Shown one piece after another: positions 16,607-51,594 of a stretch of 64,000 bases of DNA (its first letter is position 1; each line of letters starts with the position of its first letter). Position numbers and translations under genes: made by a program. Origin of the DNA: Ascidia mentula (Eukaryota; Chordata; Ascidiacea; Phlebobranchia; Ascidiidae); assembly GCA_947561715.1 (NCBI GenBank), contig OX387200.1, positions 19,532,501 to 19,596,500 of the forward strand, read 5' to 3'. The notes beneath the pieces are model-generated. The model ran no database searches. It saw nothing but the letters and a program-made list of their open reading frames with translations, and was not told the DNA's origin.

Positions 16607-19600
16607 TCATCTGACGAAAAGTAGCAAGGATGAGGTGATATCGTTTACCACTGTATAGTTTGAAGATAACGGACGTTTTATTAGGTGTTCAGGCAATTTA
16701 TGCCAAGCTGTGAAAGAAAAACAAAGAATCGAATTAGAAAACAAATCGCTATTTGCTGACACATTAGCATTTAAACAGATTTTCAACTTATATCTAACCA
16801 ATGTGGCGAGGAGTTAGTAATAAGGATTTTTTGTGAATTGTCCAGTTAAATGTAATTTTACACTTTAGTAAATTGCAAAATATAACACAAAGGTTTTCGT
16901 TAGTAAGTAGATGCTTCTACCTACCTGCAAAATCACCACAATGACCTGGAGAGCCTCTCGAACCAACACAATATAGCTTCGTTTTTGTGTAATTTGTGAC
17001 TCTGAAAACGAAACAATGTAACTGCTTGATTGCCGTAAAAAAATAAGTGGTGGTGGTTTTGCTAACAAGTACTTACACAATATTATATTAATAAGAGCAA
17101 CTATAACAATCCAGTTTTCTTTTTACCACACTGAACAAAATTCTTATCGTTACTTACCGGTTTGGCAAACGAAACAGAAAATATCAGGCTATTACAACCA
17201 TGAAATACCAATCATGTGCAATGCTACATAAACGTAATTCAGAAAAGTCATTTTACCTTACTCCAGGACACAGTGCGTACGGGAAACCGAGGTGATCGTA
17301 CTGTCTAAACTCTATGTAACCTGGGATTACACCATCATTAAACTCTGACATGTTGCCTTTCAAGAACTTCACAGGAGTGGAAAAAGAAGGGAAGTGAGAT
17401 AAATCAATCTTGCTTTCCTTATCTACGCACATTTGGAGTGTGTTGCTTATGTACAAACAGAACTTTGACACAACAAACGAGACCTACCAAAGCATCCCAT
17501 AACTTTTCTCAACACGGCGCCGACTGCATTGCTATAGATTGTTTTGTACAACCTGAAAAAATACATTGCCCAGAAAAATCACCTTTGTGACTGTTAGTTT
17601 TGTGGCTGTAATGCTGATTTTAAATCTTTAGATAACCGATTTTTTTATTTGATAGGCTCACTTTCACTTCTTTTACTGACATTACCTTGATGAAGTATAA
17701 GACTATATGAATAACGCACTCAAAAGAAATGCATTGCAAACCTTCTGATAACAGCATATCCAACGAGGATTTGCTTAAAAGGGCCTGCAAAATTTAAGAA
17801 GTACTTCGATGTTGTCAATCCGTCGAAGTGATAGTCTGGTGTAGAAACAGAGGATTTCCAATCCTAAGAATAAACGAGTGTGTGGTACTAGTTTATTTTC
17901 TTACAAACCTTTGTAGCTGCCTTCGTGTGGGTTTACTCTTGTGTGTCTTTTTACACCAAAAGTCGTCAGGCGCAATGACAACGCTAAAGGTATCAGTTGG
18001 AACAAATGTGTTTCTTTTAAATTGTTTCAACTTTTCCAATATTATGTGCATTTAAGGTGAACCTTACAAAGGTGCTTTAAATCACTTACTACAGGAAACA
18101 CACTTTGCTATATATTTACTTGAAACATGTACTACAAGACAGACTAACTTACAGTTCCACGAACAAAAAAGATGATATGGCACACGTCGCCTCCACAAAA
18201 CTTGTGGTATCGAAACGTAAAACCTGCAGCATACTCGGAAGATAAAGGTCTGTATGTCCGGTATGTGTCATTCCGTTCAACCTGATTTTGAAAATTTTTT
18301 TATAATTTTGTTATTTGCTGTACATTTTGCATTTGTATTTTTTAAAAGATATTGTGATGGAAATTATCGATGCTCAACAACTCCGCTTTTTTTGAATGTC
18401 TGTGGCTATTTTTGACATATTATTTTGCACCTTTTTCCTTTAACATGATATAAATATTCTAATCATAAATTTGGAAAAATTTCGATGTTTTCGTTCTCGC
18501 TTCAATGTTTTAGAAATTTTATTTAAAACAATGCAAATAGAGTTATTTTTTTACACCTTCATTGTAAAATTTTCAATCGATCCGTCGCTGTTGTCGATAA
18601 ACGCCAATGCTGTGAATGGTAGTGTTTTGGTTTCCATCGTGAAGTCCACTTGATCAAAAACTCTAAAAACGTTGTTCGTGAGACAAAAGTGCTCAAGGGC
18701 ATACAAAAAAAACTTGTTTGTTCCGATCATAGTGGCCAAATGAATGCTTGACAGCAATACGTTCAAAAATAGTTTGTAATGGTCTGTTAACTTTTGTTTT
18801 AACAATTTTAAAACTATATGATTAAGCAATTCGTTTTTTAACAAGCCGTTCAAATATCGTTCAATTTTACTTAACGTTTGCAACACAATATTTTGAAAAT
18901 TTTCAAAATCGCTGAAAACCTACTTCCTTGGAGAAGAATCGTTTACTCTTAAAAATCCATCACCATTGACTTCAATGTAGACCTAAATTGCATAAAGGAC
19001 TTATTTATAATTAGTTGAAGTTAGCACTCAAGTTTTTGTATGATTGAATCTTTGTTAAAAAATTTACCAAGAACGATTAGAGAACACTTGTTTTTGCAGT
19101 ATTTTGTTTTTGTTAACTTTGCAAACCTTGTCTGCAAAGGTAAGAATTTCCGGTGATTTGTGTGAGACCGAAGGACCGTTCCATGAATTTCGACCGTCCC
19201 TGTATGTCCAGTTGGTGGACTTCATGCATGCCATTAGTTCCGCACTTATATCTAAAAAATAAATAATGCAAAATAAAGAGCAAAATAAAACAATTTAAAT
19301 TGTTGGCGTTCTGGAGGTGAATTCATTATTTGCAAACGGATACGAACCTTTGGGATAGGCGCGAACGAACGGGACGTGTTGCGAGTACAAAGCTTGAAGA
19401 CTATTTCCGTATTTAGACAGAAACCCGTTGTCAGTGTAATACTTCAAGAAAGCCTCTTGGTCGATTCCAGACAACAAGACGTTGTTCGGAACGTGCCATA
19501 TCATCATGTCTGTCGCCTGTAAGTAAATATAATGGGCCCAGCTAAATTTTTGTGTTATTGAAAATTGTGATGTAAGGTGACGATTTACAACCAAGTGCTG

Positions 19601-20929
19601 AGCATCTTCTACTAAGTTTAAATTTTCCTACCAGGAAGGAACATACGTAAAAACTACTCGTTTTGTTTTGGTTTCTGTTTGTTCATCTCAAACCTACATT
19701 GACATTGTAATAAGCTGAAGTTTTGTAATCTGCGCTTGTTGCAGCTTCCATATCTCCAAAGTCGTTCGTGCCCAGCCAACTTCCATAGCCTACAGAAAAA
19801 AAATGTTTACTGTTTTAACAATACATGATTTTGTTTCTGGTGCGTGCTTGATCCTCGATGGTTAATATCGTTCAGGATTTCGGCAGTAGTTTTTAGGTAA
19901 AATAACAACTAATGCCTTGCGAAAATAAAGTAACGTAGTATTACCTCCACCACGTCCGGAACGTAAACGATAGGATGACCATTTGTCTTTGGACGAACAA
20001 CCACCCGTATCGTCGTCGTGAATGGAAGCGATTAAAGTCCACCCCCCTCCAACAGATTTCATGTCACAGAAAACCTAAAAAAAATTTTTTTGAACAAAAA
20101 AGTTTTAAATATCCGAAATATCTATTTAGTGCACAGGCTTAGTTTTGCCTTGGCCTTGTGTTTGGATTTGGCCGCCTTTTATGTGGTTTAATGTTACAAA
20201 ATCCCTAATTTTATTTGGAAAGGTTGAGGAAAAATTTTCAACAAAGCAATTTTAATATGACATTGCGGTTCTTTAAACAATCCTGTTGTTCAATTAAAAA
20301 ATAAAAGCTTGAAGTTTTAAAATACAGTTTTAAACCTTGTGTGGGTTCGTAGTGAAGTCGGGTTGCAACGTGATGAGACCAGACATTCTCAGTCCTTTCT
20401 CATACGCATCTTTACACGACTTAGGATAAACTTGAAATGTGAAGTTTCGGGACCCTAAAGGATATTATTTTTTTGTCAGTTAAAATCAACTAGAAGACAT
20501 TATCGTCCAAATAAATAACCTACGAGTGTGCCTACCTGTATGAATGGTTTTAACTTGATACACTGACATTGTGCCTGATTTGCTTTTTAGCTGTCTGTTG
20601 TTTGAGGTCTGAAACACATTTCAAAACTACAGTACTAGAGGACTTGAAATTTAATCAGAGTCTCACCAATGTAATACCAAATCCCAGTGCAATGAAATTC
20701 ATGGCAACCAACAGAATAATGGCTATCACACCCAGACTGAAAGCCGTGCTTTTGCCACGAGGTTTCGGTTCTGTGACAACATTTTTAAGCTTTGTCTCAA
20801 TCTAATTCTAACGTAATAGCAAAATGTATTTTTACCTGATTGAAACTTGTCATCTGTTTCTTCCAGATCTTTATATGTTTCTGTTGGTTGCACTGATATT
20901 TCGTCGGCGGCCAAGTTATATGTAGCCAT
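16607..20929 (-). CDS. Intelectin-like gene A, predicted type II membrane lectin
   Basis: Exons (plus coordinates, transcribed right to left): 20836-20929, 20667-20770, 20536-20608, 20336-20454, 19945-20074, 19698-19789, 19348-19516, 19127-19251, 18924-18982, 18557-18662, 18153-18281, 17742-17863, 17488-17552, 17257-17422, 16925-17001, 16607-16707. They sum to 577 codons in frame. Exon 1 encodes a cytoplasmic tail with YNL and YKDL-E-E; exon 2 one hydrophobic helix (about residues 43-67); exon 3 a short stalk. Exons 4-7 match the fibrinogen-like N half of intelectin: S-C-K-D-A-Y, [22 protein letters not shown]. Exons 8-13 are an insert absent from vertebrate intelectin. Exons 14-16 give the intelectin C half (F-R-Q-Y-D, A-L-C-P-G-V-R, Y-C-V-G-S, C-G-D-F). 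This is the most diverged of the minus-strand set and looks intact. Confidence 0.87.
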
Positions 20930-51200: not shown

Positions 51201-51594
51201 TCCACAAAAAGGAGTGTTTGGTTTCATATTTATAAGCACCTGGATGTGTGTCACCAGCTGTTTGTATTTTATCTGCAGAGTAAATGGTTCTGATCCAGCG
51301 ATGCATTGTGTTGGAAGTGTGCAAACCCATTATTCGCTCAGAAACAAGTGTGGTGACTTTGCTGGTAAATATAATAGTCTTATTCAGGCACAATTCATAA
51401 TGGCTGTTTCAATTTATTTTTATTGCCCTGGATAAAATGCAAGAATTATGGTTGCTTTTGAAGCCGTTACTTTTTCACGCCTAAAATTTTTTGTATCATT
51501 TTTAGCCTGGGATCAACTTATCGAACACAACAAACAACGAAACCAAACCGGAGCTACTGACATCACTTCGTCTCTTCTCTTGTTTGTAAGATAA
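45259..51594 (+). CDS. Intelectin-like gene F, divergent type II membrane lectin
   Basis: Exons: 45259-45370, 45759-45880, 45996-46139, 46533-46659, 47388-47560, 48066-48234, 48306-48496, 48862-48920, 49110-49212, 50000-50134, 50304-50419, 50491-50558, 50834-50999, 51279-51364, 51506-51594; 620 codons in frame, 619 residues. The tail has D-D-Y-D-L-T and K-Y-R-T-L-D-E; the helix is WIFLILIVILLVFIMAFGI. Stalk and fibrinogen start share one exon. Core motifs: V-Y-C-D-M-S-A-V-G-G-G-W-T-M, a longer block with H-W-K-N-L-I-T-F-G-D, A-T-S-A-D-Y-K, I-W-H-V-P-N. Exon 7 adds a Pro/Ser/Thr/Arg-rich linker (R-R-T-P-P-P-R-R-P-P) to the insert. The C half keeps M-H-C-V-G-S, with the His that A-E have lost. 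Introns share no sequence with A-E, but junction positions mostly agree. The start at 47388 of exon 5 is the least certain. Confidence 0.85.
46335..46350. repeat. Perfect 16-bp palindrome in a gene F intron
   Basis: TAAACAGATCTGTTTA is self-complementary and sits in an AT-rich context with more TTTAAA repeats. It lies in the intron between exons 3 and 4 of gene F. It may be a relic of a small inverted-repeat element, or chance. Confidence 0.4.

Follow-up and report, generated by a model that had tools for sequence, protein, structure and literature searches.

Candidate type II membrane intelectins carrying an inserted module in the tunicate Ascidia mentula

Introduction

Intelectins, or X-type lectins, are secreted lectins that detect microbial sugars. 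Tunicates lack antibodies; they depend on innate receptors to deal with gut microbes and, where they are colonial, for allorecognition. Here we analyse a cluster of six intact intelectin genes (A to F) in a 64,000-nucleotide stretch of the 196 Mb genome of the tunicate Ascidia mentula (C67:19532501-19596500, hereafter the window). These genes resemble human ITLN1, Xenopus XEEL and the lamprey serum lectin in their N and C halves, their WHVPN exon and, by eye, in a full or partial form of the structural calcium motif, but they differ in having a membrane anchor in place of the signal peptide, an insert of ~200 amino acids and none of the residues of the vertebrate diol site. We propose, with a probability of roughly two in three, that they encode intelectin-derived type II receptors with a role in innate recognition, in which recognition would have moved mainly to the insert and vertebrate calcium-diol binding would be gone.

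Several described receptors share single features with this arrangement. To our knowledge FIBCD1 has no insert, and its sequence matches gene E only weakly (E=0.0015, residues 113-161). Like the predicted products here, FIBCD1 is a type II receptor that spans the membrane and bears a fibrinogen domain (PMC9994688). The CD94-like receptors of Botryllus are likewise type II proteins with a lectin domain, but theirs is a C-type lectin domain, of which Pfam finds none in A, E and F. The integrin alpha-I domain (PMC12422189) is a chordate domain inserted into an older receptor, where it obstructs the ancestral pocket; we draw an analogy only and claim no homology. For tunicates, 22 intelectins are attributed to Yan 2013 in PMC6321704. 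Among the papers listed by searches that reached few subscription journals, none described a tunicate intelectin with a membrane anchor or an inserted domain; the novelty of the genes is therefore provisional.

Results and Discussion

Predicted membrane topology

The cluster spans positions 16607-51594, with F head-to-head with E (Table 1). An earlier sequence-only reading had proposed a six-gene intelectin cluster here; it is real, and both outer limits are exact. In each of the six spliced models (A, E and F built by hand, B, C and D by alignment) the frame stays open between ATG and stop, every intron is GT-AG and the phases agree; the stalk and the first FReD exon are fused in F. The proposal of recent tandem amplification holds for B to E, which share 91-95% DNA identity in blocks longer than 1.7 kb, but not for A and F, which are older: A resembles B-E in pieces only (79-89%), and F has no DNA match to the other five genes (pieces longer than 150 bases, E ≤1e-10).

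As the sequence-only reading had it, a tail exon (94 or 112 nucleotides), an exon for a single helix and a stalk precede the intelectin part in all six models. The tail is acidic (net charge -2 to -5) and carries the tyrosine-bearing stretch Y-x-x-L-[ED]-E (YKDLEE, YRNLEE, YRTLDE), although its length ahead of the hydrophobic segment is 35-47 residues and not the 30-40 first given. Immunoreceptor tyrosine-based inhibitory motifs (ITIMs) have the form [ILVS]xYxx[LV], and their activating counterparts (ITAMs) consist of paired YxxL. We rejected both for the tail, which has a single YxxL without the ITIM -2 residue. Exon 2 encodes the sole strongly hydrophobic segment of each protein: its best 19-residue window begins at residue 46 or 57 and has a Kyte-Doolittle mean of 2.68-3.24, and nothing else in any of the six exceeds 1.6. 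Lysine plus arginine in the 15 residues on either side of the helix favour the N-side in A (4:3), E (4:2) and F (3:1), the three genes counted, and a composition scan found no cleavable N-terminal signal peptide of the vertebrate type in the six genes. The type II topology put forward earlier is thus well predicted for all six.

Alternatively, the helix could be a cleaved N-terminal signal, or translation could start at an internal ATG in exon 2, so that the genes would encode secreted lectins. An in-frame ATG does lie just before or inside the helix in B-E, and three other intelectins of this genome have ordinary signal peptides (see below). To look for hydrophobic exons that begin with an ATG, we scanned each gene from 1.5 kb upstream as far as exon 4, by composition and not with SignalP. 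B, D and E have ATGs only at the start of or inside the helix, C has one such and one unrelated candidate, the single candidate in F is unrelated to the helix, and A has none; no other first exon with a signal peptide, which the sequence-only reading had named as evidence against itself, was common to the six in this region. Further evidence against secretion comes from the tail: it is 35-47 residues long, its exon is recognisable in another intelectin locus (L009), and between A and B-E nonsynonymous divergence (dN) is 0.18-0.22 and synonymous divergence (dS) 0.96, so that the tail exon, at a dN/dS of 0.19-0.23, is under coding constraint. We consider secreted products highly improbable.

An insert splits the intelectin body

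Human intelectin-1 (PDB entries 6usc/4wmq) aligns with residues 112-262 of the gene E protein at a whole-protein E=3.1e-42, which puts the intelectin identity of E beyond chance. A second stretch, from residue 506, matches human intelectin-1 weakly when taken by itself (i-Evalue 0.031-0.037) and the lamprey lectin at 4e-5. The N-half motifs CDM..GGGWT and WHVPN are both present in 6/6 proteins, and the C-half features ALC.G.R and C.DF are found by the PDB match of E and by alignment. The two halves are not contiguous: in all six genes, exons 8-13 interrupt the body after exon 7. The fibrinogen-like body of the sequence-only reading is therefore split by 202-224 residues, probably of other origin, in six exons that are flanked on each side by a phase-1 intron, the pattern that marks a 1-1 shuffled module.

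The insert had no significant match in Pfam (A, E, F) or in PDB (six-row profile), and the wider comparison with Pfam, NCBIfam and PDB, using whole proteins A, E and F and alignments of six and 12 rows, gave noise-level matches only. Among those taken as noise are a match to 4jqt (E=0.012 over 79 positions) and one of another locus, L014, to Tir_receptor_C (E=0.013, below its cut-off).

Loss of the vertebrate sugar site

We aligned 22 sequences of this genome (the six window genes and 16 others, described below) with pieces of human intelectin-1, the lamprey lectin and XEEL, using what we take to be the human numbering and assuming a role of His263 in the calcium-diol site. Among the 22, Asn243 and His263 are kept in none, Glu244, Asn260 and Glu274 in one each, Glu262 in four and Asp282 in all. 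In the six window genes, Asn243 and the five calcium-diol positions from Glu244 to Glu274 are kept in 0/6; as aligned, every one of the six genes has lost the vertebrate calcium-diol residues. The lamprey calcium ligands are named in PMC9682848, and we assigned their correspondence to 244, 260, 262 and 274. The same paper gives the structural calcium motif of intelectins (HENxxxGxCTxGD, HE[ND]D...C..GD); read by eye, B-F carry a form near the consensus and A a partial one.

The near-consensus motif in B-F and the universal Asp282 would also suit membrane intelectins in which a rebuilt C-half pocket still recognises glycans in a calcium-dependent way and the insert is a spacer. Against such a pocket stand the loss of Glu244, Asn260, Glu262, His263 and Glu274 in all six genes and the variability of the insert, which as a whole exceeds that of the intelectin body; we think it unlikely. 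Pooled over B-E, whose pairs share ancestry and are not independent, pN/pS is 0.82 in the insert (0.77 with slightly different borders) versus 0.33 in the body, a difference of 0.48 (bootstrap 95% 0.11-1.09, permutation p=0.016). By exon, none of them tested against 1, the insert gives 1.72 (exon 8), 0.23 (9), 0.18 (10), 1.05 (11), 2.42 (12) and 0.28 (13), and the intelectin part 0.65 (exon 5), 0.71 (exon 6) and 1.32 (exon 15). Between A and B-E the stalk evolves fastest (dN/dS 1.18-1.87), and the insert lies at 0.38-0.48. The contrast between insert and body lends weak support to the recognition-type selection suggested by the sequence-only reading.

Other intelectins of the genome

A genome-wide search with the WHVPN exon gave 57 matches, from which we took 20 stretches and modelled 16 further loci, fixing insert phases to those of the window genes and choosing exons partly by similarity to window exons (L010 and L011 with looser splice thresholds). 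Insert exons were found in 14 of the 16; L013 and L016 lack them, and we regarded a weak exon chain in L016 and exons 8-9 of L013 as false. Four of the 14 insert models are incomplete (L011 without exon 8, L012 and L024 without exon 9, L027 without exon 11); L024 also lacks exon 6, L026 lacks exon 4, and exon 10 of L015 is cut short in the model. The spliced translations of L012 and L024 run out of frame at the missing slot, and only their exon peptides were used later. Some early insert exons had low template scores (in L023, 0 for exon 8 and 15 for exons 11 and 13).

A transmembrane-like open stretch lies upstream in 13/16 loci. In L009 it falls within the model; L010 and L011 have it as a scored exon 2 and the others were called by composition, in both cases with no exon 1, and in L019 and L027 no good acceptor precedes it. 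Ordinary signal peptides occur in the remaining three loci (L014, L015, L016). Membrane form and insert are each common among the intelectins of this genome. Conversion to the membrane form is not universal, as the three signal peptides indicate, and the two features are separable, since L014 and L015 combine a signal peptide with an insert and L013 a helix with none. For the window genes, what stands out more than the membrane form is that they carry an insert and have lost the vertebrate sugar site.

L016 (C67:250500-260000, ~3200-4900) appears, by eye from three frames, to be ficolin-like: a signal peptide and a short collagen-like segment come with an intelectin that seems to be unbroken. 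At C70:16.88-17.97 Mb lies a very large array of Fibrinogen_C C-terminal exons with dozens of matches, none of them in the WHVPN-exon search.

The module beyond intelectins

What is the inserted module? The inserts of L012, L014 and L015 carry ISDGGGDM[YF]D.GN (F for Y in L014), an instance of the hallmark ISDGG[GN]DMYDxGN. The exon with this hallmark has 75 matches in the genome at E ≤0.4, six within 6 kb of an exon-7 match and 69 away from one; 66 of the 75 lie in dense stand-alone arrays (C2:5.17-5.21 Mb, C2:11.97-12.35 Mb and C1:19.76-19.94 Mb). We modelled four stand-alone copies from three array places with phases left free apart from continuity. Internal phases were 0,2,0,0,2 in 4/4, entry phase 1 in 3/4 and exit phase 1 in 2/4, unchanged after a partly guessed template was dropped. 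Five control stretches scored 18-67 and gave other phase strings, that of L016 agreeing in its last part. One stand-alone copy, L038, has a transmembrane-like open reading frame (ORF) upstream.

When bacterial and archaeal genomes were scanned by back-translation, 97 pattern matches came out, eight of them relatives, which belong, by record title, to Bacteroidota, Planctomycetota, Chloroflexota, Verrucomicrobiota and Acidobacteria. They lie within open frames of 1137-2045 amino acids, several cut by locus ends. These stretches had no match in Pfam (four searched), NCBIfam (two) or, at 0.01, PHROGs (all eight), and one searched against PDB sequences found nothing better than E=1.6. Scanning viral contigs with the bacterial alignment yielded 47 module loci among 86 pattern matches, whereas a protein-level phage search for the module returned nothing. 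On the phage-like contigs L052 and L053 the module seems to stand in tandem within single long frames, perhaps as part of surface adhesins. A fold model of the bacterial copy from L033 (eight sequences; ma314fa710a94) reached a predicted local distance difference test score of 88.7 and a predicted template modelling score of 0.90, with the topology helix, about ten strands, helix. Foldseek against PDB gave no convincing match (best E 4.7e-4, TM-score to query 0.37, to a GH92 mannosidase of 737 residues), and a literature text search for the hallmark found no paper. We regard the module as a domain family for which the libraries searched gave no match.

Linking the window inserts to the module

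The six-exon insert of the window genes resembles a diverged relative of this module by way of the other intelectin inserts. Inserts among the latter match the bacterial profile at 3e-13 to 6e-17, and a mixed profile of other intelectin inserts and stand-alone modules places 6/6 window genes above all 186 decoys. From these profiles and the exon layout, the window insert looks like a diverged member of the undescribed family.

Several observations weigh against the link or the receptor reading as a whole: (i) the bacterial profile alone finds 0/6 window inserts, and setting these inserts by themselves against the bacterial set, profile to profile, gives no significant match; (ii) when unedited stand-alone modules are used by themselves, A, B, C and E score marginally (E 0.0022-0.055), D equals the best decoy (0.13) and F does worse than it (0.63); (iii) adding the eight bacterial sequences to the better profile weakens its matches to 0.009-0.11 (best decoy 0.17); (iv) matches to the window inserts cover mainly exons 9-13, and the hallmark is not recognisable in any of the six; (v) helix and insert are not tightly linked, as L014, L015 and L013 illustrate; and (vi) among the 10 other loci whose sequence extends to either side of the helix, lysine plus arginine favour the N-side in seven, with a tie in L011 and a reversal in L012 and L026. 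Given the weak direct matches, the link depends on further intelectins from this genome, whose exons were themselves picked in part for resemblance to window exons. The failure of stand-alone modules alone to separate D and F from decoys slightly lowers our confidence in the receptor reading and raises that in another origin, in which the six extra exons are an old loop expansion specific to intelectins. The isolation of the window inserts from the bacterial family when compared alone, their marginal or missed matches to stand-alone modules and their missing hallmark would all fit such an expansion. Nevertheless, they share position, six exons and phases with the inserts that the bacterial profile does match, and the mixed profile recovers every window gene; we judge a loop expansion very unlikely.

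A further-reaching scenario is possible but doubtful: an adhesin-like module, possibly bacterial or phage-derived, may have been amplified to dozens of copies and placed inside a chordate intelectin whose sugar pocket was then dismantled, leaving the module as the variable recognising part, comparable to the integrin I domain. The bacterial copies sit in very large proteins, and the window copies lack the hallmark.

A putative receptor family

As intelectin-derived type II receptors, the proteins would span the plasma membrane, their N-terminus facing the cytoplasm and their lectin-derived part exposed on the outside. The intelectin part, its structural calcium motif apparently kept, would act as a structural scaffold and would no longer bind exocyclic diols via the vertebrate calcium site. 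Ligands would be recognised mainly by the inserted module, of which exons 8, 11 and 12 vary most between copies, and the acidic tail with its single Y-x-x-L may serve uptake or signalling. Such proteins would probably act as innate recognition receptors of blood cells or gut epithelium. If the genes are expressed as read, an intelectin scaffold has become a large family of membrane receptors in a tunicate, in which a domain not described before has probably taken over recognition. Because tunicates rely on innate receptors, a diversified surface family of this sort would be a testable set of candidate receptors, and the domain itself, common to bacteria and phage-like contigs and with no significant library match, is a concrete target for structural and binding work.

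Table 1. Positions in the window of the six genes and their main parts. KD19, best 19-residue Kyte-Doolittle mean; aa, amino acids.
Feature	Position	Strand	Basis
Gene A, 16 exons, 576 aa	16607..20929	-	Spliced model open throughout, all introns GT-AG
A exon 1, acidic tail with YKDL	20836..20929	-	Spliced model; dN/dS ~0.2 versus B-E
A exon 2, predicted transmembrane helix	20667..20770	-	KD19 2.68
A exons 4-7, intelectin N half	19348..20454	-	Aligns with the human-intelectin-1-matched stretch of E; Pfam Fibrinogen_C, residues 101-188
A exons 8-13, inserted module	17488..19251	-	Spliced model and profile comparison
A exons 14-16, intelectin C half	16607..17422	-	Spliced model and alignment
Gene B, 16 exons, 588 aa	22397..26959	-	Aligned spliced model
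B exon 2, predicted transmembrane helix	26698..26801	-	KD19 3.12
B exons 8-13, inserted module	23146..24663	-	Spliced model and profile comparison
Gene C, 16 exons, 587 aa	28130..32238	-	Aligned spliced model
C exon 2, predicted transmembrane helix	31977..32080	-	KD19 3.11
C exons 8-13, inserted module	28913..30427	-	Spliced model and profile comparison
Gene D, 16 exons, 589 aa	33350..37938	-	Aligned spliced model
D exon 2, predicted transmembrane helix	37677..37780	-	KD19 3.12
D exons 8-13, inserted module	34134..35644	-	Spliced model and profile comparison
Gene E, 16 exons, 588 aa	39131..43692	-	Hand-built spliced model
E exon 1, acidic tail with YRNL	43599..43692	-	Spliced model
E exon 2, predicted transmembrane helix	43424..43527	-	KD19 3.24
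E exon 3, Thr-rich stalk	43239..43347	-	Spliced model
E exons 4-7, intelectin N half, match at protein 112-262	41587..43169	-	Human intelectin-1, whole-protein E=3.1e-42
E exons 8-13, inserted module, 203 aa, phase-1 introns both sides	39903..41418	-	Spliced model and profile comparison
E exons 14-16, intelectin C half	39131..39842	-	Spliced model, PDB match, alignment
Gene F, 15 exons, 619 aa	45259..51594	+	Hand-built spliced model
F exon 1, tail with YRTL	45259..45370	+	Spliced model
F exon 2, predicted transmembrane helix	45759..45880	+	KD19 3.24
F equivalents of exons 8-13, inserted module, 224 aa	48306..50558	+	Spliced model and profile comparison
F equivalents of exons 14-16, intelectin C half	50834..51594	+	Spliced model and alignment

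Neighbouring genes

Upstream of the cluster, positions 640-13300 (+) hold a long run of Sushi-like exons, confirmed by Pfam Sushi for 2234-2605 only, followed by stretches that look discoidin-like by eye (the joined piece has no Pfam match) and one hydrophobic segment. Next to them, at 13597-15217 (+), lie a PLAT-like exon and an ORF of 437 amino acids with multiple hydrophobic segments and no Pfam match, which are reminiscent of a polycystin-1-like protein whose ectodomain is rich in Sushi repeats. On the other side are two small tandem hydrophobic ORFs (54331-54618 and 55471-55746, +) with 75% mutual DNA identity over 155 bases, the second with a sub-threshold Pfam match only. Finally, positions 57562-60676 (-) carry exons of a rhodopsin-family G-protein-coupled receptor with a His/Asp-rich N-terminus, whose 7tm_1 match falls just under the Pfam cut-off.

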